This document shows, piece after piece, positions 1,787 to 21,986 of a stretch of DNA of 22,874 nt (position 1 is its first letter; every line of letters starts with the position of its first letter). A program made the translations under genes and the position numbers. This DNA is from a virus. The notes beneath the pieces were generated by a model. It saw only the letters and a program-made list of their open reading frames with translations, was not told where the DNA came from and searched no databases. The stretch spans positions 1-22,874 of IMG/VR virus record IMGVR_UViG_3300042888_003240; one strand, given 5' to 3'.

Positions 1787-1791
1787 ATTAT

Positions 1792-1799: not shown

Positions 1800-1854
1800 T
1801 TCGCTTTATCAATTTGACAAACTGTTTTTAATGATAGGAAATTTTAAAAAAAAG

Positions 1855-1862: not shown

Positions 1863-1877
1863 ACTTGGTTAGATGGT

Positions 1878-4448
1878 GTGTCCTTGGTTGACACAATAGA
1901 TCAGGAATTAAAAGTAATTATGCCTACACCACTTTGGTCAGATATTTTTAAGACTTTTACTTATGCGTTTGAAAAAGATCCGCTAAGCAGGAGATTGCAA
2001 TCTAAAGAAATTGTTGGCGCTGGTATTATCAGCCCAGATTCTATCCCAAGCATTTCTCCCGATGGTTCTTATTGGAATGGTCAAGATAACAGACTCATCA
2101 GACTTCGTGAATCTCAAGATTTTGTTGATTTGTCTACAGTAAGCAATAGAATTTCAAGATATAAAGAATACGAGAGACTAAGAGCTGTTCCTGAAATTGA
2201 AACATGTTTAACTATATTTGCAGATGAAGCATGTGTTTCTGGAAACACCAAAGTTGCAACACCTTTTGGTTTTAAAACCATCAAAGCACTAGCAGAAGAA
2301 AATGCTACTGACAAATTTTTAGTTTATTGTTATGATTTTAAGAAAAAAGATTACACTTTAGGCTGGGCACACAACCCCAGAAAAACTAAAACATCAGAAA
2401 CTATTGAAATTATCTTTGATAATGGTGGAAAGTTAGAATGTACTCCAGATCATAAAGTACTTCTGCGCTCTGGAGAATGGATTCAAGCAGAGAATTTAAA
2501 GGTTGGCGATGATTTGATGCCTTTCTATCGTGAAAAACCAGACACCACACATAATAATCTTATAAGCGGTCAATTCCCAAGAATATTTACGTTTAATAAC
2601 GGTTGGGTTACAGAAAGACAACTTGTTGATGAATGGCGTACTGGTAAACCTATAGAAAAGTATCAATCAATTAATTTTTACACAAGATTAATCAACCAAG
2701 GCATGTCAATGGACAATATTATTGCCATGGTCGAAGAAACTTGGATAACAGTTAAAGCAAGATTAAAGAAAGCCGGTTTCACCTACCAAGAACTTAAATA
2801 CCTTGCAAAGAATAAAAGCGACAGAAGAAAAATAATTGGAAAATTTAAAGGAATTAAACAAGATGTTTATGATTTGACAGTTGAAGAACATCATAATTTT
2901 GCAACAGATCACACCATTGTTCACAATTGTCAAAAAGATGAATATGGAAATGTTTTAAAAATAGAAGTTGAAAATGATGATGTAAAAAAAGAAGTTGAAT
3001 TTTTGCTAATGTCTAGACAAATGCTTAACTTCAATAAAAGAATATGGGCAGATTTTAAAAGCCTCTTGCTATATGGAGATTTGTTTTACGAACTTGTTAC
3101 CGATCTTGATTCTCCCAATGAAGGTATTTTGAAAATTCAAAGACTTCCTCCTGAAAGTATTTATCGGATTGAAACAACTAAAGGAAAAGTTATTGAATTC
3201 CAACAATCAAAAGAAGGACCAGATTATCAATCATTGGTTCGTGCGCCCGTAACAGTGGCTAGCGATCAAGAAATTCAAATGGCAACCGCAATTAGGTTTG
3301 CTCCAGAACAAGTCGTCCATGTGAGAATTAATGAGGATAGAAGGCAATTCTATCCATATGGCAGTTCAATTGCTGAGCCAGCCAGAGGACCAGCATATCA
3401 ATTAAGATTGATGGAAGACAGTATGTTAACATATCGTCTTGCCAGAGCGCCTGAAAGAAGAGTGTTTTATATCGATGTAGGTCAACTTCCCGGATTCAAG
3501 GCAGAAGCATTCATTGAAAGAATGAAAGATCAATTCCGTAAAAGAAAAATTAGCTTAAATCAAAATGGATTTTCTGGTTCTTCTTCTGTTGAAGAAAGAT
3601 ACCAACCACCAGCAGTTGAAGAAGACTTTTGGATTCCAACAAGACCAAATTCAAATACTAGAGTTGAAACTCTTCAAGGTGCTCAGAACCTTGGTGAAAT
3701 TGATGATGCCATTTATTTTAGATTAAAACTAATGACTGCTCTCAATTTTCCTAAGAATTATCTAAATGTTGACGATCCAGCACAAACCAAGATTACTTTG
3801 TCTTCACAAGACGTAAAATTTGCAAGAACTGTTGAAAGATATCAATCTTCTTTGGAAGATGGAATTTATGAAATAGCACAAAGACATTTACATATGCGTG
3901 GATTTCCACCTGAAACATATGATGACTTGAAAATAAACATGACTCCTCCAAGCGAATGGAGAGAACTAAGTAGAGCTGAAATTGTCAACAATAGAATTCA
4001 GAATGTTACAACGCTTAAATCTGCTGGGATAATTAGTGATTATGACTTAATGCGATTTTGGATGCATTATACAGAAGAAGAAACAAAAGATATGCTTGCT
4101 AGGATTAAGTTGCAAAAACTTGAAGATGCGAGATTGCAAGTATTGCAACAAAATCCACAACTTCTTGGTGTTGGTATTCCTTCACAAGAAGATGAACAAG
4201 TTGGAGCAACAGATAAAGGACCAAATAACCAACTTGAAGTCCCAACAGAAACAACTCCTGAAGCTCCTCTTGATCCTTCCGCTCCTACTGGAGCAACATC
4301 ACCCGAAATGGGATCGTCAGCGCCATCTACTTCTGGTGGAGCGCCTCTTCCAGAACCAAAAGAAGAAGATATTGAAAAATATGACCTTGGTATTAAAGAC
4401 TACGCCAGCGAAGAAGACAACGAAAGCCAAGATTATAGCATAGAATAA
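1878..4448 (+). CDS. Portal vertex protein with an in-frame intein
   Basis: This is the dodecameric portal at the unique head vertex, through which DNA is packaged and to which the neck is joined (T4 gp20 family). The family signature lies after the intein: an R-L-A-R-A-P-E-R-R-V-F-Y-I-D-V-G segment, a basic stretch, then an F-W-I-P-T-R-P element and an L-x-G-A-Q-N-L-G-E-I-D-D segment near the clip and crown. The primary product is 856 residues. Removing the intein (119-350) leaves about 624, a normal length for large phages. The start is GTG at 1878, with only a weak ribosome-binding site and a putative late promoter just upstream. The C-terminal 90 residues are Pro/Ser/Glu-rich and probably disordered. 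The order portal, core slot, protease, scaffold, capsid matches T4. The family call is firm. Confidence 0.95.
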   Translation: MSLVDTIDQELKVIMPTPLWSDIFKTFTYAFEKDPLSRRLQSKEIVGAGIISPDSIPSISPDGSYWNGQDNRLIRLRESQDFVDLSTVSNRISRYKEYERLRAVPEIETCLTIFADEACVSGNTKVATPFGFKTIKALAEENATDKFLVYCYDFKKKDYTLGWAHNPRKTKTSETIEIIFDNGGKLECTPDHKVLLRSGEWIQAENLKVGDDLMPFYREKPDTTHNNLISGQFPRIFTFNNGWVTERQLVDEWRTGKPIEKYQSINFYTRLINQGMSMDNIIAMVEETWITVKARLKKAGFTYQELKYLAKNKSDRRKIIGKFKGIKQDVYDLTVEEHHNFATDHTIVHNCQKDEYGNVLKIEVENDDVKKEVEFLLMSRQMLNFNKRIWADFKSLLLYGDLFYELVTDLDSPNEGILKIQRLPPESIYRIETTKGKVIEFQQSKEGPDYQSLVRAPVTVASDQEIQMATAIRFAPEQVVHVRINEDRRQFYPYGSSIAEPARGPAYQLRLMEDSMLTYRLARAPERRVFYIDVGQLPGFKAEAFIERMKDQFRKRKISLNQNGFSGSSSVEERYQPPAVEEDFWIPTRPNSNTRVETLQGAQNLGEIDDAIYFRLKLMTALNFPKNYLNVDDPAQTKITLSSQDVKFARTVERYQSSLEDGIYEIAQRHLHMRGFPPETYDDLKINMTPPSEWRELSRAEIVNNRIQNVTTLKSAGIISDYDLMRFWMHYTEEETKDMLARIKLQKLEDARLQVLQQNPQLLGVGIPSQEDEQVGATDKGPNNQLEVPTETTPEAPLDPSAPTGATSPEMGSSAPSTSGGAPLPEPKEEDIEKYDLGIKDYASEEDNESQDYSIE
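2232..2927 (+). mobile_element. Intein in the portal gene, HTH-like insert, no nuclease motif
   Basis: The intein is 232 residues, portal residues 119-350. Cys119 opens block A (C-V-S-G-N-T-K-V). Block B has T-P-D-H with His192. Block F is V-Y-D-L-T-V-E-x-H-H-N-F-A near 330-341. Block G ends H-N (349-350), followed by Cys351, the first residue of the downstream extein. All residues needed for standard protein splicing are present. Between blocks B and F lie about 90 extra residues (roughly 228-318). They have no LAGLIDADG, HNH or GIY-YIG motif, but a helix-turn-helix-like segment lies around 276-312 (T-V-K-A-R-L-K-K-A-G-F-T). It is best read as a splicing-competent intein that has lost, or never had, its own endonuclease. 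Block identification is clear; the HTH call is tentative. Confidence 0.92.
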
Positions 4449-4456
4449 GGTGAATA

Positions 4457-5547: not shown

Positions 5548-5649
5548 GTTTACCTTCTTTTTTTAAATGCTTCTGCATAGATATGAGTTAGGATTCAAAA
5601 AAATTCTCACTTTATGTTATTTAACATTGTTTTTTTTGGGGAGTAAAAA

Positions 5650-7431
5650 ATGAAGAGAAAACTCATCGATTATGATGTCTTCAAGCAGATTGAGCGCAAG
5701 TTTCTCCAGACAGCTGAAAAAGAATTAAATGAAGCTGCTGATGCTATTGCCAAAGCTCTTGATAAAGACAATATTGCTTTGTTTGGTATCACTGAAAACG
5801 AAGCTACTTTTGCCACTGATCAAGGTACACTTGTTCACGCAACTTATATCATAGATGATTCCAAGCTTTTGCTTGAAAATATCGAAGAATTGGTTGTTGA
5901 TGAGACTTCTCAAATTAATGAAGGCAAAAATATCATTGATAGAATGGTTGATTCCATTCTTGATGATAACAAAGAAAATGCAAGTGATTTGTTTTCAAAT
6001 TACTTTAGCCTTCCTTACATTCGTGTAAATCTTCAAGAAGGTGTAATCAACGAATCTAAGAGGCATAAAGGCAAGATGCCTCCTCAGCTTGCAGCCTATC
6101 TCAAGAAGAAGGCAGCCAAGAAAGGCAAAAAAGGCAATAAAGGCAAGAAAGATGACAAACGTGAAGAATTAGTCAAAAAGCATTCTTCAAATAAGATGGC
6201 ATTTATTGCTAAAAAAGCTAATGCTAAGGTTGTTAAAGAATGGGCAACTGTTTCCAAGAATGTTCTTGACTATGTTGATTTTAGGACTTTTGGCGCTCCA
6301 ACTTTGAGCGAAACTGTTAAAGACAAGCTTGGTAATGTTATTACTGTTGCTATTCCTCGCTCACAAATTAAGAATGAAGCTAAGATTCTTTCATTCAATT
6401 GGAAGACGCTTAATACAGATGTAATGCACCAAAGAGATCTTATGAGACTTCTTGCTCATAATGCTCACTGGGGTCTTGCTTGCAAAGACATGAAGAAGTG
6501 CAACGCTATGAGCGATTCATCTAAACTTCAAGAAACTATTGAAAATGTTGCAGCTGCTTTCCCAAGTGTTGTGTACCTTACTGAAGGTGAACTTGCTAGG
6601 CTAATTAGCGACACTTTAGTTAGAGAAAATGTAAAGAACTTTGATGATGATTCTTGTGTGTTCTTAGCTGAAGGTGTTCTAAGAACATGCTATGAAACAT
6701 ATAAAGATAAAGTCAATCAGATCTTTAAAATAGCTGACATGTTTGAATCTGATAGTTACGAAGGCTTCAAGCATGCTTCTGAAATCATGGTTGACAAGCT
6801 TAACGAAGTTTCAAAGACCGAAAAGATGGCTTTTGAAGATACTTACAAAGCACTTAACAGTCTTGCAGGTCTTGCTGAACATTTCGGAGATGCTTCCATT
6901 AAGCACGAAATTGCTGGTTATATGGGCGATATTGAAAATGCGCTAACTGGCAAGAAAGCTTTCGATATTGATGTTCTTGAAGAAGCAGCTGCTATGCTTA
7001 AAGCTGCCGCTAATCTTCCTATGAGTGGCGATTGGCATGTGTCTGATAAAGTTGGTAACACTGTAACAGGTGATATCGAATCTATGTCAAGATACGGCAA
7101 AATTGACGGAAGTCCCGGCAAGTATGCTTCAACAAGATCACCATTCGTTAGTGATGGCAAATCTTACGACAAGCAAGGTGTTGAAGATCTTAGGAAGGGT
7201 TATTTGACTCATGATGGTTCTGATGTTTACCCAAATGTCAAGAATCCTTATGTTCCCAAGGCTGGCGATTATAAGATTCATGGAGAAAAGACTATTGATT
7301 CAGATAGCGATGTTCTTGGTTACAATGATGGTCCCGGAACTTGGGACAAGTTAAAAAATCCTTACATTCCTTCAAATGGAATGACATTGGCTCATAGTTT
7401 CAAACTGCTTAAAGGCAGCGAAAGGGGTTGA
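5650..7431 (+). CDS. Probable prohead core or internal head protein
   Basis: This 593-residue protein occupies the slot between portal and prohead protease that holds core genes in T4. It has a strong ribosome-binding site (GGGGAG at 5638-5643). I do not recognise a named family. A very basic linker lies at residues 152-170 (K/G repeats), separating an acidic N-terminal third from a helical middle. The C-terminus holds three copies of a short motif, S-P-F-V (497-500), N-P-Y-V-P (532-536) and N-P-Y-I-P (570-574). Several L/I-x-E followed by G or A triplets (ends near residues 28, 91, 130, 312 and 341) fit the cleavage preference of gp21-type proteases. This suits a core protein cut during maturation, by inference. 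The stop at 7431 is two bases before the protease start. Confidence 0.72.
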   Translation: MKRKLIDYDVFKQIERKFLQTAEKELNEAADAIAKALDKDNIALFGITENEATFATDQGTLVHATYIIDDSKLLLENIEELVVDETSQINEGKNIIDRMVDSILDDNKENASDLFSNYFSLPYIRVNLQEGVINESKRHKGKMPPQLAAYLKKKAAKKGKKGNKGKKDDKREELVKKHSSNKMAFIAKKANAKVVKEWATVSKNVLDYVDFRTFGAPTLSETVKDKLGNVITVAIPRSQIKNEAKILSFNWKTLNTDVMHQRDLMRLLAHNAHWGLACKDMKKCNAMSDSSKLQETIENVAAAFPSVVYLTEGELARLISDTLVRENVKNFDDDSCVFLAEGVLRTCYETYKDKVNQIFKIADMFESDSYEGFKHASEIMVDKLNEVSKTEKMAFEDTYKALNSLAGLAEHFGDASIKHEIAGYMGDIENALTGKKAFDIDVLEEAAAMLKAAANLPMSGDWHVSDKVGNTVTGDIESMSRYGKIDGSPGKYASTRSPFVSDGKSYDKQGVEDLRKGYLTHDGSDVYPNVKNPYVPKAGDYKIHGEKTIDSDSDVLGYNDGPGTWDKLKNPYIPSNGMTLAHSFKLLKGSERG

Positions 7432-7432
7432 T

Positions 7433-8077
7433 GTGAGTATGCTACTTGTAGATTGCTGTTCCAACGGCGGTATTCATATGAATTTGAATGAGTCTGCAAC
7501 TAGCGGACTCACCAGATTCCGTGGTAAATTTCAACAAGCCGATGAAATAAATAAAAACAACAGATGTTACAGTTATGATGTGCTAGACAAAAATATGCAC
7601 GATTTAGTGGAATGCGTTAGCGCAAGAGGTTTGGTTGGTGAATTAGATCATCCCTCTGATTCCATTATTCACTTTGAAAAAGCTTCCCATGTCGTAACAA
7701 AATTATGGTGGGAAGGCAAGTCCTTGATGGGAGAAGGAGAAATTCTTAACACTCCACATGGTAAGATCCTCAAAGCTCTTATCAACGATGGTGTCCGTGT
7801 GGGAATTTCATCCAGAGGTGTCGGCAACGGGTCAACAAATGATAAAGGTATCTTGATGATCACAGAATCATACAAGCTCATTACATTTGACGCAGTTGCA
7901 GATCCTTCAACTTATCAGGCATTTCAAAGGAAAATTACTAAAGAAAATTATAATCCTAGTAATTTTTCCACAAAAAATGAAAGCAGAAGCATACATACTG
8001 TTAATAAGGACGCATTAATAGCTTGTTTAGGCGGGCTAATTAAGAATAAAACCAGTAATATAATAGGGAGACTGTGA
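7433..8077 (+). CDS. Prohead maturation protease, gp21-like
   Basis: This serine protease of the phage prohead/herpesvirus assemblin group cleaves scaffold, core and capsid proteins before DNA packaging. Visible signatures, numbered from the GTG start, are G-E-L-D-H-P with the likely catalytic His73, the strand A-S-H-V-V-T-K-L-W-W-E-G (84-95), and V-G-I-S-S-R-G-V-G with the likely nucleophile Ser126 or Ser127. These are followed by F-D-A-V-A-D-P-S (152-159). The length, 214 residues, is normal for T4-like members. GTG at 7433 is five bases from an AAGGGG site; ATG at 7439 or 7478 could also be used. It lies directly upstream of scaffold and capsid genes, as in T4. The C-terminal 40 residues are poorly conserved and may be an autocleaved tail. 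Confidence 0.93.
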   Translation: MSMLLVDCCSNGGIHMNLNESATSGLTRFRGKFQQADEINKNNRCYSYDVLDKNMHDLVECVSARGLVGELDHPSDSIIHFEKASHVVTKLWWEGKSLMGEGEILNTPHGKILKALINDGVRVGISSRGVGNGSTNDKGILMITESYKLITFDAVADPSTYQAFQRKITKENYNPSNFSTKNESRSIHTVNKDALIACLGGLIKNKTSNIIGRL

Positions 8078-8078
8078 G

Positions 8079-8960
8079 ATGAACAAGATTTTCAATTCAT
8101 TAAAGAAACTTCTTCCAGCAGAGCATATCAACGAAGTTGCTCAGTCTGTTAACGAGATGCTAGAAGAATCTAAGAAGGAAATGGAAGCTGAATATAATAA
8201 GAACTTAGAAGAAGCTTATATGCAGCTTACAAATGAACTTTCTCAGGCTGAAAAGACCGCCTACCATGGTTATAACGAAGCTTATGCTATCATTAATGAC
8301 CTTCAGGAAAGAATCGGAACTCAGAAGGCTGAGTTTGAGAACGCTCTTGAAGAAGGTTACGAAGAAGCTTATCAGATGCTTCTTGCAGAAAGAAGCAATA
8401 AGAATAGCGTTGAAAGCGACCTATACGAAGAGTATGATGGTAAGCTTAAAGAAATGAAAGAATATATCGTTGACAAGGTTGACGAATTCCTTCAAGTCAA
8501 GGGTGTTGAAATTTACGAGCAGGCGAAGAGAGATCTTCTTGCTGATCCTCGTATTGTTGAACACAAAGTTGCACTCGATAAGATCGTTAATATCGCTTCT
8601 GATTATATCGCTGGCGATGAACAATTCTTCTCAACTTCCGGCAAGCTTGAAGAAGCTCGCAAGTCTACAGAAGATCTTAAGGGTCAGCTAAGAATCATGG
8701 AAGCAAGGAACATTCGTCTTTCAACCGAGAATACGAAGTTGAATGAAAGTGTTCGTAGAGCTTCTGAAGTCATTGGTGAACATCGTGTTGATCGCACAAG
8801 AAGAGTCATCAGTGAGCAGAAAGAGCGTGGTATGAAAGCAAGAGTTGCAAGCGGGAGAGGTCAGTTAGTAACTGAGAATGTTCAGGTTATTTCTGAATCA
8901 AACTCAGCGAATGTGGACAACGATCTTCTCGTTCTTTCAGGAGTCAAGAAATCTAAGTAA
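8079..8960 (+). CDS. Prohead scaffold core protein, gp22-like
   Basis: This is the major scaffold protein around which the capsid shell forms, later destroyed by the protease. The 293-residue sequence is almost all helix and coiled coil, rich in Glu, Lys, Ala and Gln with no Cys or Trp. The T4 gp22-type region is seen around residues 129-165 (V-D-K-V-D-E-F-L, then R-D-L-L-A-D-P-R-I-V-E-H-K-V-A-L). Many L-E-E followed by A or G sites are potential protease targets. The ATG follows the protease stop by one base, with a purine-rich site GGGAGA upstream. Codon choice shifts toward C- and G-ending codons compared with neighbouring unknown genes, consistent with high expression. Confidence 0.88.
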   Translation: MNKIFNSLKKLLPAEHINEVAQSVNEMLEESKKEMEAEYNKNLEEAYMQLTNELSQAEKTAYHGYNEAYAIINDLQERIGTQKAEFENALEEGYEEAYQMLLAERSNKNSVESDLYEEYDGKLKEMKEYIVDKVDEFLQVKGVEIYEQAKRDLLADPRIVEHKVALDKIVNIASDYIAGDEQFFSTSGKLEEARKSTEDLKGQLRIMEARNIRLSTENTKLNESVRRASEVIGEHRVDRTRRVISEQKERGMKARVASGRGQLVTENVQVISESNSANVDNDLLVLSGVKKSK

Positions 8961-8987
8961 GTTTTATAATAAAGAAAGGTAACTACA

Positions 8988-10445
8988 ATGAGTCTCAATT
9001 CAACTTATTTGAACGAAGCTAAAGAACTGGAGAGCCGTTGGGCAAAAACTGGTCTTCTCAGGGGTATCGAAGATACTCATACCCGTGCTGCAACCGCAGT
9101 GCTTCTTGAGAACCAACGCCTAATGCTCGAAAGAGAAAAGCTATTTAACGAAGTGTCAACCGACACCGCAGATGTCGCACAGTTCAAGAGGATTTCAATT
9201 CCTCTCGTGCGCAGAATTTACCCACAGCTTATCGCTAACAAGATTGTAAGCGTTCAGCCACTACTCGGACCAACTGGTTTGGTGTACTATCTCCGTTTCC
9301 GTTATTCTTCCAACAAGGGTAGCGTTCGTGGAGCTAGCAACAACGGTGGTTTCCCCGGAGACGATATTAATTCACTCCAGCAGCTTGCTGATGGTACTGC
9401 TAACCTCGATGTTTATTATTCTTCACAGTTTATTAACAACGAATCAACCAGCACCGATGCAGGCGCAGATGTTAATAGCGTATTCAGCCCACTTGAACAC
9501 ACTCCAATCCTCGCAGGCACCATCACTGGTACTGTCTATGATGGTTCAACCGCTGTTCAGACATTCGTTGTCTCTTCAAACGGCACCTTCAGCTTTACCG
9601 CAATCGGTTCACCTACTAACAGAGCAACAGCTGGTAGCATCGATCTTACCACTGGCGAATTCACACTCACTTGGGATAATGCACCCGGTCCAAACAACTG
9701 CACAATCTCTTATGAGTACAATATGGAGTGCAATCAGGATCTTCCTGAAATCAATCTCGTAATTGAATCAGAAGATATCGTTGCTAAGACCCGTAAGCTC
9801 AAGGCTGTATGGTCTTATGAAGCACAGCAGGATCTCCGTAGTCAGCACAATCTTGATGCTGAAGCTGAGTTGACCGCTGTTCTTGCACAGGAAATCAACC
9901 TCGAAATCGACCGTGAAGTTCTTGGTGACCTTCGTAACAACGCAGGTACGGTTTCAGCTTGGGACTTCTCAACTGCAATCGGTCAGACCATCAAGGAAAA
10001 GTACGAAGCCCTTTATGTTAAGATCATCGAAGTTTCTAACGTCATCCACAGAAAGACCCTCCGTGGCGGCGCAAACTTCATCGTGACCTCACCTGAAGTT
10101 GCTTCAATCTTCGAAACAGCAACCGCTGGTTTCGCTCCTGCTCCTTCTGAGACCTTCACAAGCTCACTCGGCGTTCAATATGTCGGTACGGTCGCTAACC
10201 GTTATCGTCTATACAAAGATCCACTCTTCCCAAGCAACCAGTTGCTTATGGGTTATAAGGGCGACAGCTACATGGACAGCGGTTACTTCTACTGCCCATA
10301 CGTTCCACTCACCCAGACCCCAGTTGTACTCGACCCAGAGTCCTTCTGCCCAAGACGTGGTTTGCTTGTTCGATACGGAAAAAAGTTATTACGCGAAGGT
10401 GCTAAATTCTACGCAAGATTATCAATAGCCAATTTTAGAGTATGA
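8988..10445 (+). CDS. Major capsid protein, gp23-like
   Basis: This is the shell-forming HK97-fold capsid protein of the T4 type, 485 residues. Family hallmarks are I-S-I-P-L-V-R-R-I-Y-P-Q-L-I-A-N (69-84), V-Q-P-L-L-G-P-T-G-L-V-Y-Y-L-R (89-103), an inserted beta-rich domain around 165-245, and the A-K-T-R-K-L-K-A-V-W-S-Y-E segment that leads into the core. The N-terminal 60 residues are helical and charged, as in gp23, where about 65 residues are removed by the protease; L-L-E at 39-41 or F-N-E at 53-55 are possible cut sites. It has a ribosome-binding site (AAAGG near 8975) and a strong terminator 25 bases downstream. It is richer in G+C and C-ending codons than most of the window, as expected for the most abundant protein. 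Confidence 0.96.
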   Translation: MSLNSTYLNEAKELESRWAKTGLLRGIEDTHTRAATAVLLENQRLMLEREKLFNEVSTDTADVAQFKRISIPLVRRIYPQLIANKIVSVQPLLGPTGLVYYLRFRYSSNKGSVRGASNNGGFPGDDINSLQQLADGTANLDVYYSSQFINNESTSTDAGADVNSVFSPLEHTPILAGTITGTVYDGSTAVQTFVVSSNGTFSFTAIGSPTNRATAGSIDLTTGEFTLTWDNAPGPNNCTISYEYNMECNQDLPEINLVIESEDIVAKTRKLKAVWSYEAQQDLRSQHNLDAEAELTAVLAQEINLEIDREVLGDLRNNAGTVSAWDFSTAIGQTIKEKYEALYVKIIEVSNVIHRKTLRGGANFIVTSPEVASIFETATAGFAPAPSETFTSSLGVQYVGTVANRYRLYKDPLFPSNQLLMGYKGDSYMDSGYFYCPYVPLTQTPVVLDPESFCPRRGLLVRYGKKLLREGAKFYARLSIANFRV

Positions 10446-10470
10446 TTTTTTCATAACGTCTAACTTTACT

Positions 10471-10502
10471 GAAACCGCTTGTTTCCAAGCGGTTTCTTTT
10501 TA
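10471..10502 (+). terminator. Intrinsic terminator after the capsid gene
   Basis: A perfect 10-base-pair stem (10471-10480 with 10487-10496, GAAACCGCTT and its complement) with a six-base loop is followed by TTTTTATATTT. It closes the head operon and separates it from the endonuclease gene. Confidence 0.93.
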
Positions 10503-10572
10503 TATTTAACTAAGTTAGAAACAGTCAAACTGTCGTACAAAGTTAAAAGTTTTTTTATTATCGTAAAACGTC

Positions 10573-10600
10573 TTGATTTGAATTGAGTCTGTGTTATAAT
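10573..10600 (+). promoter_or_regulatory. Sigma70-type promoter of the endonuclease gene
   Basis: TTGATT at 10573-10578, a 16-base spacer and TATAAT at 10595-10600 with an extended -10 TGT form a near-consensus bacterial promoter. The predicted start near 10607 leaves a short leader containing AGGAG (10610-10614) before the ATG at 10621. It lies directly after the capsid terminator, so the endonuclease is expressed independently of the head operon. Confidence 0.8.
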
Positions 10601-10620
10601 AGATTCAACAGGAGAACATC

Positions 10621-12369
10621 ATGTCAAAGATTACAATCGAGTATGTTAGAGATCAGTTTGCTAATCGTGGGTGGACAGCACTTGCCGATAAGTATGTTAA
10701 TTCACAAACTAAGATTAGTGCTATTTGCGGCAATGGTCACGCAACAACAATTACATGGAATAATTTTCAAAGAGGTCAAGGTTGTAGATTCTGTGCTGGT
10801 AATATTAAGTTTTCATACGACCAAGTAAAAACTGTGTTTGAAGACAATGGTTGTGTCCTTCTTGAAAAAGAATACACAAGCAATAATACGCCTATGAAAT
10901 TTTTATGTTCATGCGGTGTAAAAGATGTAATATCTTTAACATCAATTAAAGCTGGAGCTAGATGCAATCAATGTACTGCAAGAAAGATTGCAGAAAGCAA
11001 TAGAGTTACAGATGAAGAATTAAAAAAACGATGTGAAACAAAAAAGTTTAAATTCATAAGATCTTTTGTAAACAAAGATAATGATAGAACATATATTGAA
11101 TACGTTTGCCATTGCGGCAATATGTCAAAAACTGGTCTTTTCAATTTCAATAAAATTGAAAATTGTCGCATTTGTGGTAATAACAAGAAAAGTGGTAAAA
11201 ATTGTTACAAGTGGAATGCTGATAGAGCAGAAGTAAGAAATAGAAAAATAATTCGCAAACGATTGGGAAACATTATCAATAGATGTCTATTTAAACAAAA
11301 TGGTCAAAAGTCTGCAAATACCGAAAGACTATTAAAATATCATCCAAATATATTAAAAGAAAAAATTATGCAACAAGTAAAAGAACTTGGTTTGGAAAAT
11401 AAAGCATGGCATGTTGATCATATATTTCCCGTACAAGCTTTTATAGATCATAAAATATATGATCTAAGTCTTATTAATCATATTGATAACTTAAGAGCAT
11501 TGTCAGAAGAAGATAATCTAAAAAAATATGATAATTATGATAAAGATAAATTTTTAAATTGGGTTATTTCAAAAACAAAATTTGAAACAATAGAAGAATT
11601 TCTGGCAAGTTATAATGTTTCTTTTACAAATGAAAATTTAATAATAACAAAAGATATAGCAATATGTTTTGTTAATATTATTAAGACAAATCAAGATAAC
11701 AATGAACAGCGCAATAAAATGATGGTTGACAAACATACTGTTGTCATTTTTTCAGATGAATGGACAACAAGAAACAAACAAGTTAAAAATTTTTTAAAAA
11801 GCCTTTTGCATCTTAATAAACAAAAAATTGATGCAAGAAAATGTGATATAAAAATAATTGATAATGATCTTGGTAAAAATTTTTGTGAAGAATATCATAT
11901 ACAGGGTTCAAATAACCTAGCTTATCAATTTTTTGGTTTATATCATGCAGAGGAACTAGTTGGTGTTCTTTCTTTGGGCAGACATACAAGACAAAGAGAC
12001 GATCTTGTTCTTGACAGACTTTGTTTCAAAGATGATGTAACAGTAAGAGGTGGCGCTAGTAAATTATTCAAATATGCTGCAATTTGGGCTAAAAATAAAA
12101 ATCATAATAAAATTATTTCATTTAGTGACAAACGATGGAGCAAAGGTGTTGTTTACGAAAAACTTGAATTTGTCAAAGAAGCAACCCTTTATCCAGATTA
12201 TAGTTATGTATCTTCAGCTCATCCTCATTTTAGATTGACAAAACAAAGTCAAAAAAAGAAAACAGTCAATTGTCCAGAAAGCATGACAGAAAAAGAATAT
12301 GCCAGATCAAAAGGATTGAAACTTATTTATGATTGTGGCAAAGACAGATGGGTTTATAATATTAAATAA
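10621..12369 (+). CDS. HNH homing-type endonuclease with Zn ribbons and Hef-like C-terminal domain
   Basis: This 582-residue protein has three parts. Residues 1-190 hold three zinc-ribbon-like units, each with a first Cys/His pair and a second C-x2-C (C36-H40 and C55-C58; C96-C98 and C115-C118; C163-C165 and C182-C185), as in DNA-binding modules of phage endonucleases. Residues 260-302 are an HNH nuclease core, with H264-V-D-H267, then N-H-I-D-N-L-R-A-L and E-E-D-N299. Residues 372-540 (I-F-S-D-E-W, A-R-K-C, H-I-Q-G, F-G-L-Y, R-G-G-A-S-K-L-F-K-Y, S-D-K-R-W-S-x-G-x-x-Y) resemble, from memory, the C-terminal region of Hef/EDxHD-type homing endonucleases, without the usual nuclease domain before it. 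It has its own promoter and ribosome-binding site. It is probably a selfish gene inserted beside the capsid gene. The HNH call is firm; the C-terminal family is tentative. Confidence 0.88.
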   Translation: MSKITIEYVRDQFANRGWTALADKYVNSQTKISAICGNGHATTITWNNFQRGQGCRFCAGNIKFSYDQVKTVFEDNGCVLLEKEYTSNNTPMKFLCSCGVKDVISLTSIKAGARCNQCTARKIAESNRVTDEELKKRCETKKFKFIRSFVNKDNDRTYIEYVCHCGNMSKTGLFNFNKIENCRICGNNKKSGKNCYKWNADRAEVRNRKIIRKRLGNIINRCLFKQNGQKSANTERLLKYHPNILKEKIMQQVKELGLENKAWHVDHIFPVQAFIDHKIYDLSLINHIDNLRALSEEDNLKKYDNYDKDKFLNWVISKTKFETIEEFLASYNVSFTNENLIITKDIAICFVNIIKTNQDNNEQRNKMMVDKHTVVIFSDEWTTRNKQVKNFLKSLLHLNKQKIDARKCDIKIIDNDLGKNFCEEYHIQGSNNLAYQFFGLYHAEELVGVLSLGRHTRQRDDLVLDRLCFKDDVTVRGGASKLFKYAAIWAKNKNHNKIISFSDKRWSKGVVYEKLEFVKEATLYPDYSYVSSAHPHFRLTKQSQKKKTVNCPESMTEKEYARSKGLKLIYDCGKDRWVYNIK

Positions 12370-12805
12370 CTATTTCACTTTCTGCATTTGCCAATAAAGG
12401 CAAATGCAGATTGTTTGTATCACTCAAGCACCAATAAATTTTGGTTAAAGAAAGGGCATCAAGTGCTATTTGGCATTTGTAGCATGGTTTAGCCAATCTG
12501 AATCGTCCATGGCGGTTGATTTTTAGACTTAGGATCGTAGTTCTCTTGCTATAGTGCTTATCATCGAGTTTGAGTAAAAGATCGGCTTCAGCGTGAAGGA
12601 AGGGGTATTTCTGCCAATGCTCTATATTGAATCGTTTAGCTAATCGATAAGCTTTAGCAGAAGTCATGATTGGGTTATTCTTACCTATTGCTAATATTCT
12701 ATTTTTTCTAATAGCAAAAGCATAATGATAGAATGGACGAGATGTTTCTCCACCCCAATCTTCCATCATAATTTTAACACATTTTTCTAAATGATATTGG
12801 TTCAT
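12362..12805 (-). CDS. Cytidine/dCMP deaminase-fold protein
   Basis: This 147-residue zinc-dependent deaminase-like protein has F-L-H71-A-E73 and P107-C108-Y-K-C111, the H-A-E and P-C-x2-C metal and catalytic signature of the family. Glu73 would be the proton shuttle. dCMP deaminases feed dUMP to thymidylate synthesis, a common phage function, but the substrate cannot be told from this sequence. The N-terminus lacks a clear nucleotide-binding loop of T4 dCMP deaminase type, so tRNA or other nucleoside targets remain possible. The stop overlaps the endonuclease stop by eight bases. A perfect TTGACA/TATAAT promoter ends seven bases before the ATG, leaving no room for a leader; Met13 or Met14 could be the real start. 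Confidence 0.82.
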   Translation of the reverse strand: MNQYHLEKCVKIMMEDWGGETSRPFYHYAFAIRKNRILAIGKNNPIMTSAKAYRLAKRFNIEHWQKYPFLHAEADLLLKLDDKHYSKRTTILSLKINRHGRFRLAKPCYKCQIALDALSLTKIYWCLSDTNNLHLPLLANAESEIVI

Positions 12806-12812
12806 AGTTTAA

Positions 12813-12840
12813 ATTATAATTAATTCAAACTATTTGTCAA
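12813..12840 (-). promoter_or_regulatory. Perfect consensus sigma70 promoter of the deaminase gene
   Basis: On the - strand TTGACA (12840-12835), a 16-base spacer and TATAAT (12818-12813) match the consensus in all twelve positions. Transcription is expected to begin at or next to the ATG at 12805, so the mRNA would be leaderless unless an internal start is used. Confidence 0.78.
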
Positions 12841-12850
12841 GATTAATCTG

Positions 12851-12875
12851 CATCTATGCTATCTTCGTTTCTTGA
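12851..12875. repeat. 25-base direct repeat, copy 1
   Basis: This is identical over 25 bases to 13802-13826 in the same orientation. This copy overlaps the 3' end of the flavoprotein gene, while the other lies inside the 3' end of the glycosyltransferase gene. The two copies are read in different frames. Together they bracket the flavoprotein gene as a unit of about 950 bases. Confidence 0.9.
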
Positions 12876-13722
12876 CTTCTTTAATTAAATTTTTAATTAA
12901 TTTGATTGCCTTGTCAATTAAATCACTTTTACGAACATCAATGTTGCTTTGACTATATTTTTCTTTATATCCAAAAACACTTCCTTCTATGCAGTTTTCT
13001 GGAACAAAAATGCCACTGTAGCGACACTGATTAACAATAGGCATAATAGCTTCTTTAGGACTGATATAGTCTTGTGGCTTAGAATCAGCCATAGCTAATG
13101 GCATCTTGCGTCCAACATAGTCATTTGCGCCATTATCTCCATGTATGAAAAATGCTCCAACTTTACCCTCATAATGATTTTTCAAAAGATCACGATATTT
13201 TCCACTTTGTTCTGCTGCTATTGTTTTCTTAGGGTCTTTGATATCTTTGCCGTAAATCTTTTTTGCGTCTTCGACAGATAATGTTAAACTAACGCAAACA
13301 AGTCTATCGAACAATGATTTGACTTGACTGGATGGACCTGACCAATAAACAGGTGTAAAAACAACAAATCCATCTGCTTCTTCCATTTTCTTGTAAACGT
13401 CTTCTTCATACATGAGATCATTTGTTCCATCGCCTTTGCCATAGCAGGAACATGGGTAATGGCATTGAAAGCCATTACTCGTTCCAACGCATCCTTTGCA
13501 TGGACGAACTTGTGGGTCATCATCCATTACTTTCAAATCAACAATTGTAAATTTGACATCTTCTGTTATTTCTTTTATTGCTTTGTTCATTAAAAAACTT
13601 GTTTTACTATCTCCACCAGAACAAGAATCCTTTGTTCGTGGACTTCCCTGAAAAACAACAATTTTTATTTTGTCGTTATTGTTAGCAGTAGCTTCTGAAA
13701 GATATTCAATAAAACTTATCAT
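12859..13722 (-). CDS. NADPH-FMN reductase-like flavoprotein with capsid-targeting-like N-terminus
   Basis: This is a flavodoxin-fold oxidoreductase of 287 residues. The FMN phosphate loop is V-V-F-Q-G-S-P-R-T (22-30), and the conserved F-T-P-V-Y-W-S-G-P-S-S-Q-V-K-S-L-F-D-R (122-140) is the second flavin-contact region. A cysteine cluster (C75, C78, C87, C91, C93) recalls iron-sulfur flavoproteins, though the spacing is not the classical one. The first 11 residues, M-I-S-F-I-E-Y-L-S-E-A, lie outside the fold and match the T4 internal-protein leader in shape, with L-S-E followed by A as a possible protease site. I infer an enzyme carried in the virion. No ribosome-binding site is visible. The 3' end includes one copy of a 25-base direct repeat, and the gene may have been inserted as a cassette. 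Confidence 0.85.
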   Translation of the reverse strand: MISFIEYLSEATANNNDKIKIVVFQGSPRTKDSCSGGDSKTSFLMNKAIKEITEDVKFTIVDLKVMDDDPQVRPCKGCVGTSNGFQCHYPCSCYGKGDGTNDLMYEEDVYKKMEEADGFVVFTPVYWSGPSSQVKSLFDRLVCVSLTLSVEDAKKIYGKDIKDPKKTIAAEQSGKYRDLLKNHYEGKVGAFFIHGDNGANDYVGRKMPLAMADSKPQDYISPKEAIMPIVNQCRYSGIFVPENCIEGSVFGYKEKYSQSNIDVRKSDLIDKAIKLIKNLIKEVKKRR

Positions 13723-13787
13723 ATTAAAATATATACTTTTTTTTAAATAAAATTATTACAAATAAAATTGTTTTTATGATTTATTTA

Positions 13788-14738
13788 TTAACCAATTTCT
13801 TCATCTATGCTATCTTCGTTTCTTGATTTAAAATATTGTACCAATTCATCTCTAAATTCAATTTTATTTCCTGTTAAGGCATAAATTCCTTGCCAATCTT
13901 TCTTTATGTCTGTATCTGGGTCATAGTTATTTTTGACTAGAACATTGCTTCTCCAGCTATAACCTCTATCTTTTTTCTTTCCATGCCAATAGTGTAATAG
14001 TGTTCCTTCAACATATCCTATATTTTTCTTAATATGCTCAACCGCAAGGGTTTCCCATTTTTTGAGTACACGTTTGTATGCTTGTGTGAATTTTTTGTTT
14101 ATAGTCATTTCAATCTTATCAACTAGACCAAAAGCCATATGTCTGTCTCCAGAACCTAATATTGCTTCTTCTATTAGTCCACCGAATGAATTAAAGGCAT
14201 ATTTTGTAGCTGCCCAAGCAAAACCGGGGTGCCAATGGTCATATTTGTCGCATTTTTGGTGTACACGGTTGAGATAACTATAAACAAATCCTTTGTGTGC
14301 TTTTATCATTTCGTGTTTAGGAGAAAGGTCTACAGCAGTGCTAAACATTTGGACTACTGGGTGGTGTTGTAGTTGATGTATGGTTTCTTCGACCCAATCT
14401 GGTCGTGCGAAGGCAACATCTGCGTCAATCCATGCAACGTATTCCCAATTTGATGGAAGTCTTTGTACTGCTACGTTGATCATGTTTTCTTTGTGCCACA
14501 ATTCAGATATAGTTCTTACTTGAATGTTTTGTGGGTTGTCTGATGTAGTGACTTGAAATGGTCTATTTCCGTATGCAGCTTCTATTGTGTAGAGTACTGC
14601 TCCAGAGTCATTGACCATTTTTTCAAATTTTTTGTACAGTTTGTATCGGCTATTGTATCTTTGAGGGTTAATGATAGGTGTGATAACATAGAGTTTTGCA
14701 TCTTCCTGATAATTGGCAGCTAATGTTTTGCTGATCAT
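13788..14738 (-). CDS. Glycosyltransferase, GT-A fold
   Basis: This 316-residue protein begins its domain with L-Y-V-I-T-P-I-I-N-P (17-26) and has the metal/sugar-nucleotide motif W-I-D105-A-D107-V-A-F-A-R-P-D-W, typical of GT2-like transferases. H-P-G-F-A-W-A (near 170) and the E-x2-L-G-S-G-D-R-H segment (near 192) suit the acceptor and catalytic regions of this type. It probably transfers a sugar from a nucleotide donor to phage DNA, a virion protein or a host surface; the acceptor is unknown. There is no membrane segment. The ribosome-binding site GAGGTG is good but lies in the 3' arm of a 10-base-pair hairpin, and a late-type octamer lies in that hairpin. The C-terminal codons contain the second copy of the 25-base repeat. 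Confidence 0.85.
   Translation of the reverse strand: MISKTLAANYQEDAKLYVITPIINPQRYNSRYKLYKKFEKMVNDSGAVLYTIEAAYGNRPFQVTTSDNPQNIQVRTISELWHKENMINVAVQRLPSNWEYVAWIDADVAFARPDWVEETIHQLQHHPVVQMFSTAVDLSPKHEMIKAHKGFVYSYLNRVHQKCDKYDHWHPGFAWAATKYAFNSFGGLIEEAILGSGDRHMAFGLVDKIEMTINKKFTQAYKRVLKKWETLAVEHIKKNIGYVEGTLLHYWHGKKKDRGYSWRSNVLVKNNYDPDTDIKKDWQGIYALTGNKIEFRDELVQYFKSRNEDSIDEEIG
13802..13826. repeat. 25-base direct repeat, copy 2
   Basis: This is the perfect match of 12851-12875. Here it encodes the glycosyltransferase C-terminus around S-R-N-E-D-S-I-D. In the other copy the same frame would read S-R-N-E-D-S-I-D-A-D and then stop, but the flavoprotein uses a different frame. Confidence 0.9.
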
Positions 14739-16459: not shown

Positions 16460-16798
16460 TCAACCAGTTAAACTTTTGGGACAAGGTGATCCGCTGCATC
16501 CTTTGCCGAATTTGTTTGCCATATCTCTTTTATACCATTGTTCTGGTGTTTTTGCCCATGCATTTTTATTACTATTTGATGGTGTATATTTAAATGCGGT
16601 CCCTGTGCCTGTTAAACCACCTCCAGTAGATCCACCGCCTCCTCCTCCACCACCACCACCACCTCCTGTTGTTGGTGCAGCAGCAGATGGTGCAGGAGCT
16701 TTAGTAGTTGCAGATGGTGCTGGAGCGGGTGCTGGAGTTTTAGATGGAGCCGGTGCAGGAGCAGCTTCTAATAACCAGTTTTTAAAGTTTAAATTCAT
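16460..16798 (-). CDS. Low-complexity Gly/Pro/Ala protein with targeting-like N-terminus
   Basis: The sequence is 112 residues from the ATG at 16798. The start M-N-L-N-F-K-N-W-L-L-E-A fits the shared targeting pattern, with L-L-E followed by A as a possible protease site. It is followed by an Ala-Pro-Ser linker (residues 13-44), a run of 12 glycines (encoded at 16631-16666), and a C-terminal part with W and Cys (A-W-A-K-T-P-E-Q-W-Y-K-R, then G-C-S-G-S-P-C-P). No ribosome-binding site is visible. The start lies 16 bases from the start of the opposite gene at 16815. A TTG further upstream (16897) would add a poorly protein-like stretch and is less likely. The function is unknown; probably an internal head protein on a flexible linker. 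Confidence 0.6.
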   Translation of the reverse strand: MNLNFKNWLLEAAPAPAPSKTPAPAPAPSATTKAPAPSAAAPTTGGGGGGGGGGGGSTGGGLTGTGTAFKYTPSNSNKNAWAKTPEQWYKRDMANKFGKGCSGSPCPKSLTG

Positions 16799-17023: not shown

Positions 17024-17923
17024 ATGAAAAATTTTTGCGAGTGGCTTGAAAAAAAAGATCAAAAATACTTTAGAACATTAATTTTTAAGGAACAAAAAGA
17101 TCCTAACGTATTTGACATAAAAGATTATCTAATAACTAAACTTGAGGATGGTGAGGACTATTATGTAGTTGATGATCCTTTTGAAATGGGTAAAAAAAAA
17201 TATATTCCAGTTGACAGCCCTAGTGCTATTGAAACAGTTAAAAGATTACATAATGCGAGAGTAAATAAAGGTAATCCTTTAGCCCAGAACAATACTAATG
17301 CTGTTGATGCTAATATGAAGAGAAAAGATGCTGTTAAAAAACCACTTGATATGAAGGCACAGGCAGAGAAAGAAGCGCAAGAGATAGAGCTTAATAGAAG
17401 AATGGCAGGCTTTAATGCGATGGTGAGAAGTTTTGAAAAATATTATGGTAAAGACCGTACTGCTAAAGTTTGGCAAAAACCTATATTAATAGCGGCTAGC
17501 GAGGAAAAAACTAACGATCCATATTTATTAAAACAAGCTTCTTACTTCAAAGAGTATCACAATGTTTTTGGACCTAGATATTGGAGATGGAGCAAAGAAG
17601 CTAAAATAAAAGCTGGGGTAGGTGAATTGAAACCAGAAGAAACTCCATTATTCATAGTGACAGATATTGACGATTGGAAAGAGAACTGTCAAGATCTTGC
17701 TAGACAATTATTTAATAGTATGTATGGACCTAAAACTGATGGAGAAAGCTGGCATAATTTAGCTAGTATTGCATCTGGATATATTAAAGGTGCAGATAGA
17801 GAAACTCTCGAAAACGCAATGAGGTTTACAATAGAAACATATAAAGATTATCTTGCTGGGAAGAAGGGGAAAACCTATGAGAGATGGGATGCTCCAAGGC
17901 GAAGGGAAACTGGAGTTGATTAG
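17024..17923 (+). CDS. Paralogous putative internal virion protein A (YGP domain)
   Basis: The sequence is 299 residues. It begins M-K-N-F-C-E-W-L-E-K-K-D-Q-K-Y-F, the shared targeting pattern, and its first 80 residues align with those of the next gene (D-G-E-D-Y-Y, then Y-I-P-V-D-S-P). F-K-E-Q at 21-24 is a possible protease site. Residues 92-125 are charged and helical. A C-terminal domain at about 211-290 (T-D-x2-D-W, then M-Y-G-P 233-236, S-W-H-N-L-A, E-N-A-M-R-F, Y-K-D-Y) is present twice in the next protein. No known fold or enzyme motif is recognised. It has a strong ribosome-binding site and its own putative promoter. It was probably produced by duplication with 17974-19824. Confidence 0.72.
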   Translation: MKNFCEWLEKKDQKYFRTLIFKEQKDPNVFDIKDYLITKLEDGEDYYVVDDPFEMGKKKYIPVDSPSAIETVKRLHNARVNKGNPLAQNNTNAVDANMKRKDAVKKPLDMKAQAEKEAQEIELNRRMAGFNAMVRSFEKYYGKDRTAKVWQKPILIAASEEKTNDPYLLKQASYFKEYHNVFGPRYWRWSKEAKIKAGVGELKPEETPLFIVTDIDDWKENCQDLARQLFNSMYGPKTDGESWHNLASIASGYIKGADRETLENAMRFTIETYKDYLAGKKGKTYERWDAPRRRETGVD

Positions 17924-17973: not shown

Positions 17974-19824
17974 ATGCGATATTTTATTGAATGGCTTGAG
18001 ATTAGAGATCCCAAATATTTCAAAAGTTTTGTTATTAAAGAACAAGATGATCCTTTAGAATATTTTGATACTCCTAAGATAATTTCCAATGAAGATGGTG
18101 AAGAATTTTACAAAGTTCCAGATCCTTACAATGATGATAAATACAGATATATTCCAGTTGATAATCCCAAAGCCAAGGCAATAGTACAAAAATTGTTAAA
18201 GGCTAATGCTGCTAAGTTAAAAAATGCACTTGTTGCTCCTGATATTCTTACAGGACCACTTCCTGCCAATAAAAAAGTGGTTGGTGGAGATGATTTTGAA
18301 GGGGCAGATACCCTTAATCCTATAGAAAACAGGGCTAATACATTGAGACGGTTACTTGGCAGAGAAGTTATGAAGAAATTTAATGTGCCTCATAGTGAAG
18401 TGACAGATGATGCTATAAACATGGAGATTATAAGAGCTGGAATTAAGAAAAATTTAGAAAAAGTTATGCTTCTGGATGGCAAGGATCTAAAAATTCATGA
18501 TTTTCAACAGAAATTATTAGATAACCCAGAATATGGTTATATTCCAGAACTTTGGGAGCCTAAAAGCATGAGGGATCTAGCTCCTAAAAGCATGAAAGGA
18601 TTTCGTTTGCCTTGGTATATGTTTAATGGAAGACGAGAAATTCCAGAAGGTGTTATTTTAGTTGATAAAAAAGGCAGAATAGTTGACAAAGATGGTAAAT
18701 TATTGCCAGAAAAAGGACCACAAATAGCTAAAGCTCCCGAAAAACCAGCAATGCCTAAACCAGTAGCACCAGCAATGCCTAAACCAGTAGCACCAGCAAT
18801 GCCTAAACCAGTAGCACCAGCAGTGCCTAAACCAGTGCCACCAGCAGTGCCTAAACCAGTAGCACCAGCAGTGCCTAAACCAGTAGCACCAGCAGTGCCT
18901 GTGGATAAAGACGAACTTGTTACAGGTTCTTGGATTGGTACTACAGATCTTCCCGGAGATAGATACTGGAATTTAAAGTATCAAGCAGAAATTATCCAAA
19001 TGTTAACGTATATGTATGGACCAACCCAAGAGGCTTGGGGAGAAGAGGGGTTATATGGTGCTGGCAGGGTCGGTGGTGGTAAGTATGATAATAAAGAGAA
19101 TAAGCTAATTGTTAAAAACTTTTTAACAAGAGTATACGGTGATTATAAAAATAAAAAAGCAAAAGAAAAATTAAATCCGACACCAGCTACTAACAAGCCT
19201 GTGGAACGTCCAAATGGTAAGCCAGAACCAAAGCCACCACAATTTCCACTTCCAGTTTTACCTAAACCTCCGTGGCATAATAGTACAGACTTCCCCGGAA
19301 GTGATAATTGGAAAAAAAATTGGGCTAGCAAGGCGCATGACTTAATGTGGAACATATATGGTCCAAACAAAGATAATTGGACACATTTAGGCAAATTAGC
19401 GGCTGGTGTAGACGAAATAGAGGGTGTTACACCTTTTGATAGAAAGGTAGAACAGGAAAATGCAAGACTGTTTATAGATATGGTTTTCGATCTCAACGCA
19501 CCACATTCTAGATGGAGTCAACAGCAAAAAAATGATGGTGGCTTGAGAGACTCAACAAAAGAAAAAAATGAATTTGAAGAAGAGGGTAAAACAGAATCTG
19601 AAAAAAGACAAAAAAAACTTAATGCTGCATTTGGTGATAAGTGGAAAAAATCGACTGCGTTTAGACTGTATGCTGGAGTTGAGCGCATACAAAATAATAC
19701 ACATGACGCTTTTGTACTTGATAGAGTATTAGACACAATTAAAAAGCATGGAGATGATTTCTCCAAATGGACAAATGAAATTTTGGACAGTGCATTGGTC
19801 ACTGAATTCCGAGTAGGAAAATAA
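17974..19824 (+). CDS. Paralogous putative internal virion protein B with Pro-rich linker
   Basis: The sequence is 616 residues. The N-terminus M-R-Y-F-I-E-W-L-E-I-R-D-P-K-Y-F carries the targeting pattern, and residues 1-85 align with the previous gene; I-K-E-Q at 21-24 is a possible protease site. Residues 110-250 are unique and mostly helical. A Pro/Ala/Lys linker of six and a half 8-residue repeats (about 258-309) is followed by two copies of the YGP domain: W-I-G-T-T-D-L-P-G-D ... M-Y-G-P (347-350) and H-N-S-T-D-F-P-G-S-D ... I-Y-G-P (461-464), each with a later E-N and F. A second Pro-rich spacer (about 401-433) separates the copies. The last 90 residues are charged and helical. The function is unknown; the layout looks like binding domains on flexible linkers. 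Confidence 0.75.
   Translation: MRYFIEWLEIRDPKYFKSFVIKEQDDPLEYFDTPKIISNEDGEEFYKVPDPYNDDKYRYIPVDNPKAKAIVQKLLKANAAKLKNALVAPDILTGPLPANKKVVGGDDFEGADTLNPIENRANTLRRLLGREVMKKFNVPHSEVTDDAINMEIIRAGIKKNLEKVMLLDGKDLKIHDFQQKLLDNPEYGYIPELWEPKSMRDLAPKSMKGFRLPWYMFNGRREIPEGVILVDKKGRIVDKDGKLLPEKGPQIAKAPEKPAMPKPVAPAMPKPVAPAMPKPVAPAVPKPVPPAVPKPVAPAVPKPVAPAVPVDKDELVTGSWIGTTDLPGDRYWNLKYQAEIIQMLTYMYGPTQEAWGEEGLYGAGRVGGGKYDNKENKLIVKNFLTRVYGDYKNKKAKEKLNPTPATNKPVERPNGKPEPKPPQFPLPVLPKPPWHNSTDFPGSDNWKKNWASKAHDLMWNIYGPNKDNWTHLGKLAAGVDEIEGVTPFDRKVEQENARLFIDMVFDLNAPHSRWSQQQKNDGGLRDSTKEKNEFEEEGKTESEKRQKKLNAAFGDKWKKSTAFRLYAGVERIQNNTHDAFVLDRVLDTIKKHGDDFSKWTNEILDSALVTEFRVGK
18745..18900 (+). repeat. In-frame 24-base tandem repeat, 6.5 copies
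   Basis: Units of 24 bases encode P-A-M/V-P-K-P-V-A. The first three are identical to one another (P-A-M-P form). The later units use GTG for Val, and one carries a changed V-P ending. Copy number is likely to vary between relatives by slippage or unequal recombination. Confidence 0.95.
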
Positions 19825-20942: not shown

Positions 20943-21986
20943 ATGAGTGGATTTAACGAATGGTTGGAAAGAAAATATCCTGAATATTTGTTAGAGCAAG
21001 GAGCTGTTAATCCAGCCGGAACTCCTAATAATCCTACACCGAATTATGATCAATTTGATCCAGACGATCTGAAAGAACTTTTAAAACGCTTAGAATATGC
21101 TAAAAGAGGAAATAAAATTTTTTGGGACAATGTTGGTAAGTTGGATAAGATAAGTTTATATTATTATGCAAAATCTAAAGGTATAGATCTAAATCCAAAT
21201 GATTGGGAAAAAAATCCAAGTAAATTTGATCAAGCATTATTAAATTTGTATAATGTGATGGTAAAAAATTTAAAAAATGGAAATATGCCTAGAAACATGA
21301 CTAGAAAACTCGGTGCAAGACCTCCTGAAGTGGCGGCTGGTTTTAATGCAGCTTACGTTGGATATTTATACAATTTGGCAGATTCTGTAGATAACGATAT
21401 GCCAGACGATACGCCAGACGGGAGTTTAGGAAATTCAGATATGCTTAAAAATTTGGCGGAATATGTTAAAAAAGTTACTAATTACATTGGAACAGAATTA
21501 GCAAATCCAAAATGGGACCAAAAAGGTTACGAGCGAACAATTTTTCAGCAGCTGTTTGGTGGGGGGAGAAAACATATACTCGCCCCTTGGAAAGAGCAAC
21601 TTACATCTTGGTATATCAATTTCCATCCTTTTACTTGCCCATTTTTGTGTGACAGACTGGGGATACTTAATAAGCATGGTAAAAATGATCCTGATTCTTA
21701 CAGGAGTACGAGAGTTTGGAGTAATGAACAAGAAGACGCTGATCACGGACAAAACATAAAACAACTTAAGGCTATCTATACCATAATTAGGACTGACGTA
21801 GCAACAAATCAAAATTTAATTAAAAGATATTATGGTCCAGATGTTATCCGTGAATATAAAAAAATAGAAGATTATAAATCATCTGAATACGATCTCTATG
21901 ATTGGGTAACCCAGACTGCGAGCAAGCCGAGCAAAGATTTTGGTAAAAAAAGAGAAACATATGGTGCTAGTCAAGGTGATAATTAA
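20943..21986 (+). CDS. Putative internal virion protein C
   Basis: The sequence is 347 residues. It begins M-S-G-F-N-E-W-L-E-R-K-Y-P-E-Y-L-L-E-Q, the targeting pattern, with L-L-E followed by Q as a possible protease site that parallels the E-Q in the two paralogues at 17024 and 17974. A Pro/Asn linker follows (residues 22-40), then helical segments with many Asp, Asn and Tyr. H-P-F-T-C-P-F-L-C-D-R (around 230-240) is a striking Cys/His segment that could bind metal. There is no known domain. It has a good ribosome-binding site and its own putative promoter, and probably heads a four-gene unit running to the window end. Confidence 0.68.
   Translation: MSGFNEWLERKYPEYLLEQGAVNPAGTPNNPTPNYDQFDPDDLKELLKRLEYAKRGNKIFWDNVGKLDKISLYYYAKSKGIDLNPNDWEKNPSKFDQALLNLYNVMVKNLKNGNMPRNMTRKLGARPPEVAAGFNAAYVGYLYNLADSVDNDMPDDTPDGSLGNSDMLKNLAEYVKKVTNYIGTELANPKWDQKGYERTIFQQLFGGGRKHILAPWKEQLTSWYINFHPFTCPFLCDRLGILNKHGKNDPDSYRSTRVWSNEQEDADHGQNIKQLKAIYTIIRTDVATNQNLIKRYYGPDVIREYKKIEDYKSSEYDLYDWVTQTASKPSKDFGKKRETYGASQGDN

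Follow-up and report, generated by a model that had tools for sequence, protein, structure and literature searches.

The window, meaning the whole stretch of 22,874 nucleotides analysed here (virus record IMGVR_UViG_3300042888_003240, 22.9 kb), holds a head-gene block of a T4-like phage encoding gp20, gp21, a gp22-type protein and gp23, together with a flavoprotein gene (Table 1). The gp21 protein aligns with T4 gp21 across the motifs GELxHP and SSRGxG, presumably the active-site His and Ser regions, and candidate hydrophobic-x-E sites are found near the starts of gp21 (LNE/S) and gp23 (LNE/A; here and below a slash outside brackets marks the site). The nearest named relative of the capsid protein is that of LR756511, a 595-kb uncultured huge phage (76%). 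Both gp21 and gp22 are present in the window and in relatives; protease genes were also found in relatives G002 and G004, the other contigs being fragments without head genes, and where one contig holds both, the flavoprotein gene lies ~1-15 kb from gp23. The portal intein (PF14890) occupies residues 134-350 of gp20, and as tblastn matches of nearly full length in G004 and LR756511 (L152) cover the same portal residues it may be shared. A 582-aa ORF at 10621-12369 combines an N-terminal part that is HNH-like by eye with a C-terminal Mom-family/GNAT domain (PF25680, 1e-8), and in G002 and G006 its relatives, which lie near gp23, match in the C-terminal part alone. A 147-aa ORF at 12362-12805, with HAE and PCxxC, is cytidine/dCMP deaminase-like by eye and had no Pfam match.

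Table 1. Positions of the features in the window and the evidence for each
Feature	Position	Strand	Evidence
gp20-type portal with intein	1878..4448	+	PF07230 6.4e-72, PF14890 1.4e-14
gp21-type prohead protease, start probably 7478	7433..8077	+	PF03420 2.6e-25, phrog_207 2.4e-45, T4 alignment
gp22-type scaffold/core protein, presumed leader partner	8079..8960	+	position and conservation
gp23-type major capsid protein	8988..10445	+	phrog_138 2.4e-86
Flavoprotein gene, FMN-reductase-like, 287 aa, N-terminal capsid-targeting-type leader	12859..13722	minus	PF03358 8e-15, PF02525 2.7e-7
Flavin-ring loop and helix, residues 123-141, TPVYWSGPSSQVKSLFDRL	13300..13356	minus	
Five-Cys cluster C75 C78 C87 C91 C93, residues 75-93	13444..13500	minus	invariant, phages and bacteria
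FMN phosphate-binding loop, residues 25-30, QGSPRT	13633..13650	minus	invariant in phage set
Variable linker from leader to first beta strand, codons 11-19	13666..13692	minus	
Leader M-I-S-F-I-E-Y-L-S-E, codons 1-10, predicted gp21 cut Glu10/Ala11	13693..13722	minus	
Ala/Pro/Gly-rich protein, 112 aa, leader-like start MNLNFKNWLLE/AA	16460..16798	minus	
299-aa protein, looser leader MKNFCEWL, TAAATA upstream	17024..17923	+	
616-aa protein, looser leader MRYFIEWL, TAAATA upstream	17974..19824	+	
347-aa protein, looser leader MSGFNEWL, TAAATA upstream	20943..21986	+	

The Pfam match of the flavoprotein to FMN_red scored 55.2 bits against a cut-off of 24 and spans residues 19-143, with a second match to Flavodoxin_2. 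Profile searches of PHROGs and NCBIfam did not contain the family and a single-sequence PDB search gave no match. The AlphaFold model (24 sequences) has a mean pLDDT of 70 and a pTM of 0.74, with residues 197-235 below 50, and places a helix at residues 4-12, with the first strand coming next at 19; the closest PDB folds found by Foldseek were oxidoreductases and azoreductases, namely Smu.1420, azoreductases (AzoR) and SsuE, with TM scores of 0.3-0.6. The predicted fold is that of a flavodoxin, with modest model confidence. The flavin-contact motifs were correctly described as intact in the original prediction, being found as QGSPR at 25-29 and TPVYW...FDRL at 123-141 alongside the FMN_red match, and the sequence makes an active flavoenzyme likely. 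The Pfam match and the fold are shared with FMN reductases and azoreductase-type enzymes of PF03358, whereas identity to them is 10-17% and the flavoprotein has an additional Cys cluster and an additional C-terminal segment.

Bacterial homologues, annotated as 'flavodoxin family protein', are 27-31% identical over the domain and include Sinorhizobium meliloti WQP04157 and Bradyrhizobium WP_231145699, which have the seven Cys, the HGD motif and the FMN loops in common with the phage protein. They do not have the leader and carry instead an unrelated N-terminal region of ~85-115 residues that is missing from the phage form; a check for the same N-terminus in non-phage homologues, proposed with the original prediction, therefore came out in its favour. 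No relative turned up when the phage alignment was scanned against bacterial genomes, so a bacterial-type fragment served as the query instead. Gene neighbourhoods of the bacterial homologues provided nothing usable as a functional hint (OsmC at 3/80 loci, SodB at 1), and all-against-all clustering of them was overwhelmed by shadow ORFs arising in high-GC DNA. Residues that do not vary among phages and bacteria are C34, C75, C78, C87, C91, C93 and C143, as well as H88, H183 and HGD at 194-196. The five clustered Cys noted in the original prediction are thus present at 75, 78, 87, 91 and 93 and conserved, but support for its iron-sulfur part is partial. The compact motif that is canonical for the iron-sulfur flavoprotein family is C-x2-C-x2-C-x5-7-C (PMC3164229) and does not fit here, the spacing being C-x2-C-x8-C-x3-C-x1-C; what is common to both is the flavodoxin fold and a Cys cluster opening with C-x2-C. 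With seven invariant Cys, metal binding is at most plausible.

A viral scan for the flavoprotein identified 16 loci, and all those with the 5' end present start M-(K/R/I)-(S/T)-(F/Y)-x-E-Y-(L/I)-x-E-(A/T)-T. The full-length phage relatives of the window protein are 70-100% identical to it and all retain this N-terminus; the leader is found in 11/11 aligned full-length phage homologues with E6, Y7, E10 and T12 invariant. Translation of T4 DNA showed that ipII and ipIII both start MKTYQEFIAEA, and MISFIEYLSEA of the window is identical to this at positions 1, 6, 10 and 11 and conservative at 3, 4, 7 and 8. The resemblance noted in the original prediction was read from the minus-strand ORF as written and proved to be conserved family-wide, with some relatives nearly T4-like (MKTFAEYLAEA in L014) and one (L010) starting one residue farther upstream (MIKSFLEYLAEAT). 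In T4 the first 10 residues are enough for packaging, targeting depends on residues 4 and 7 of the capsid targeting sequence and processing on residues 8 and 10, and gp21 cleaves after L/I-X-E (PMC9026906). The residue class is right at these four positions in every phage homologue, with an aromatic residue at both targeting positions (F/Y at 4 and Y at 7), Leu/Ile at 8 and Glu at 10, and all have a gp21-type L/I-x-E site followed by A/T at the end of the leader, so that the predicted L-S-E cut before Ala conforms to the T4 rule. The leader is under purifying selection equal to that on the domain: pN/pS was ~0.21 for codons 4-12, 0.205 for the domain and 0.39 for linker codons 13-19.

A strict T4-type pattern matched one start codon per contig in seven contigs, always that of the flavoprotein gene, among 33,286 start codons with 15 open codons, and in T4 it matched ipII and ipIII only. 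Because this pattern was drawn up after the family had been seen, BLOSUM62 scoring against the single T4 leader is the less biased test. By this measure the flavoprotein was among the top four in 7/7 contigs (1360-14,589 start codons each) and first or tied first in five, the window protein being 4th of 1369. The significance of the leader rests on the conserved family and not on the window sequence alone.

The leader is also present on small basic proteins encoded divergently beside the flavoprotein gene in four relatives (L013, L014, G004 and G002). In L013/L014 this neighbour is MKTFGEYLTEATKK (87 aa, pI 9.7), and in the other two it has 109 aa (MKSFNEYLAEK, pI 10.0, in G004 and MRSYKEFLAEK, pI 9.7, in G002). 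These proteins have a C-terminal region in common among themselves and none in common with the flavoprotein, and so resemble the T4 IP proteins, whose sole common part is the leader (PMC12373910), in that the leader is reused on unrelated proteins. The window copy has a glycosyltransferase-like gene as its upstream neighbour instead. A DUF5661 protein (7.9e-14 in L013) with the looser leader described below also lies divergently beside the flavoprotein gene (L013 4711-4968, L014 2916-3176), and an ORF at L011 3606-4148 looks related to it.

The tree grouped the phage proteins with a homologue in the 735-kb phage LR756501 and separated them from the bacterial proteins (100/100 support), although long branches meet at this group and the placement of LR756501 is therefore unsure. 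The LR756501 protein is 42.8% identical and has no conforming leader, a viral scan with it as query gave no match, and LR756511, the relative closest by capsid protein, has no FMN_red gene. Carriage of the flavoprotein as cargo is thus not universal. The LR756501 gene is flanked by the leader-like starts MKKYNEYLLEE and MLTKFELFLEG (L018, from 2263 and from 3822 on).

A looser form of the leader, [FY]xx[FWY][LIMV] within residues 2-13, which covers T4 positions 4, 7 and 8, was sought in the six contigs G001-G006, the window and LR756511 (L163-L192). It was found in 83/679 ORFs, where other 12-residue slices gave 9-15 and shuffled sequences 16.7, and in LR756511 in 47/797 against 8-16; only 22 ORFs combine it with an E-[ASGT] site. 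With the contigs taken together, the hexamer TAAATA is over-represented within 30 bases upstream of ORFs (21 per 10-base bin, as compared with 2-8 in the stretch from -120 to -71), and the looser leader is strongly associated with it (30/70 against 53/609, OR 7.9, p 4e-12), a control farther upstream giving p 1. Counted by family with orthologues removed, the figures were 60/455 (~13%) against 8-15, with OR 8.7 and p 7e-11. The T4 late promoter motif is TATAAATA, by analogy with which TAAATA may be a late-promoter mark; the exact T4 motif was not enriched in the window (1 observed, 2.4 expected). TAAATA lies just upstream of the flavoprotein gene in five relatives (G001, G005, L011, L013 and L014) and is absent from the 36 bases upstream of the window copy. 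In T4 itself the looser leader is not enriched (6/205 ORFs against 2-8 in control slices), so that the looser class is particular to these phages and T4 gives no evidence of its being a targeting signal.

The flavoprotein is likely to be an internal head protein, in which a T4-type capsid targeting sequence precedes a reductase of the flavodoxin/FMN_red superfamily that would bind FMN and depend on NAD(P)H. Its packaging into the head is well supported and very likely, given the conserved leader, the reuse of that leader on unrelated neighbours, the gp21 and core protein genes in the window and the lack of the leader in bacterial relatives. Together with T4 mutagenesis, these sequence-based lines of evidence favour the flavoenzyme carried in the virion that was first proposed. 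The protein would be made late in infection, and its leader helix would dock through F4 and Y7 on the gp22 core at prohead assembly. Cleavage by gp21 after Glu10 (L-S-E/A) is probable and would leave a 277-aa enzyme free inside the head, around which the DNA would be packed. Ejection with the DNA into a new host is reasonably likely, and there the enzyme might reduce an acceptor, such as quinones, flavin or thiols, ahead of phage gene expression; a role in protecting against redox stress, be it oxidative or defence-related, is conceivable and rather doubtful. Known T4-type capsid-targeting cargo consists of small restriction inhibitors, and Alt is a separate injected enzyme. With IPI, IPII and IPIII the flavoprotein shares a 10-residue leader with aromatic residues at 4 and 7, Leu/Ile at 8, Glu at 10 and Ala at 11, an encoded gp21-type protease and reuse of the leader on unrelated basic neighbours, whereas the mature protein is a conserved 31-kDa flavodoxin-fold enzyme and the T4 IPs are small, diverse, basic inhibitors. 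It speaks against this reading that a folded protein of this size must pass the tail, the T4 IPs being small, although the larger T4 Alt does so. Alt is an ADP-ribosyltransferase that enters the head, undergoes processing by gp21 and is ejected (PMC9026906), and is a precedent for a head-packaged enzyme, with different chemistry and a different propeptide of 7 residues. A search of the open literature, outside which most subscription journals lie, found no earlier case of a redox enzyme that a phage packages or ejects.

An auxiliary metabolic enzyme of the cytoplasm, in which the N-terminal helix is part of the enzyme (a dimer contact or an aid to solubility) and resembles T4 by chance, would accord with FMN reductases being common cytoplasmic enzymes (PF03358 occurs in 13/14 control genomes), with the leaderless LR756501 homologue and with the window copy alone being merely 4th for likeness to the T4 leader. 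It is nevertheless improbable in view of the unrelated neighbours that bear the same leader, the bacterial homologues that manage without it and a conservation that is found at the residues important in T4 and stops at the variable linker. Slightly less improbable is a packaged protein that is not an enzyme, either a flavodoxin scaffold that inhibits a host defence protein after ejection or a core or structural protein, as T4 IPI, IPII and IPIII are all injected restriction inhibitors, directed against GmrSD enzymes (PMC12373910). Phages and bacteria however share the flavin loops, HGD and seven Cys without variation, a sign that the cofactor chemistry has been retained, and the 71-100% identity among phages is unlike the divergence of the T4 IPs.

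The number of ORFs with the looser motif is far above the number of T4 IPs, and since the looser leader occurs on so many genes it may not signify quite the same in these phages as in T4. It could be a general virion-assembly tag, with the flavoprotein sent elsewhere, e.g. to the tail or baseplate. The flavoprotein leader has the E/A processing site of head cargo that is confined to 22 ORFs, and its gene lies within a head-gene neighbourhood, both of which make such a destination improbable. If head packaging and ejection of the flavoenzyme are true, the phage would alter host redox chemistry at entry, before any gene expression.

The looser class may be an extensive group of virion cargo proteins, or it may reflect a general assembly tag. 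Among the enzyme-like types that bear it are a kinase, a nucleotidyltransferase and acyltransferase-like and hydrolase-like proteins, the Pfam matches being mostly below the curated cut-off with the exception of an AAA_33 kinase-like protein. It can be suggested tentatively, at somewhat less than even likelihood, that these huge T4-like phages run a large TAAATA-linked late regulon of leader-tagged virion cargo (~60/455 families) that delivers an enzyme kit including the flavoenzyme. If so, the redox flavoenzyme would be among the most conserved items of the kit, and the link between the looser leader and a late-promoter-like motif would allow virion cargo to be predicted from sequence in uncultured huge phages. 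A leader-bearing protein of 133 aa (G003 40393-40794), for which Pfam gave no match, has a YHGT motif and is by eye like the ADP-ribosyltransferase fold (cf. T4 Alt). The protein at 16460-16798 of the window and another at L004 3088-3366 are Ala/Pro/Gly-rich and of low complexity, and both start MNLNFK(N/K)WL(L/T)E/AA.
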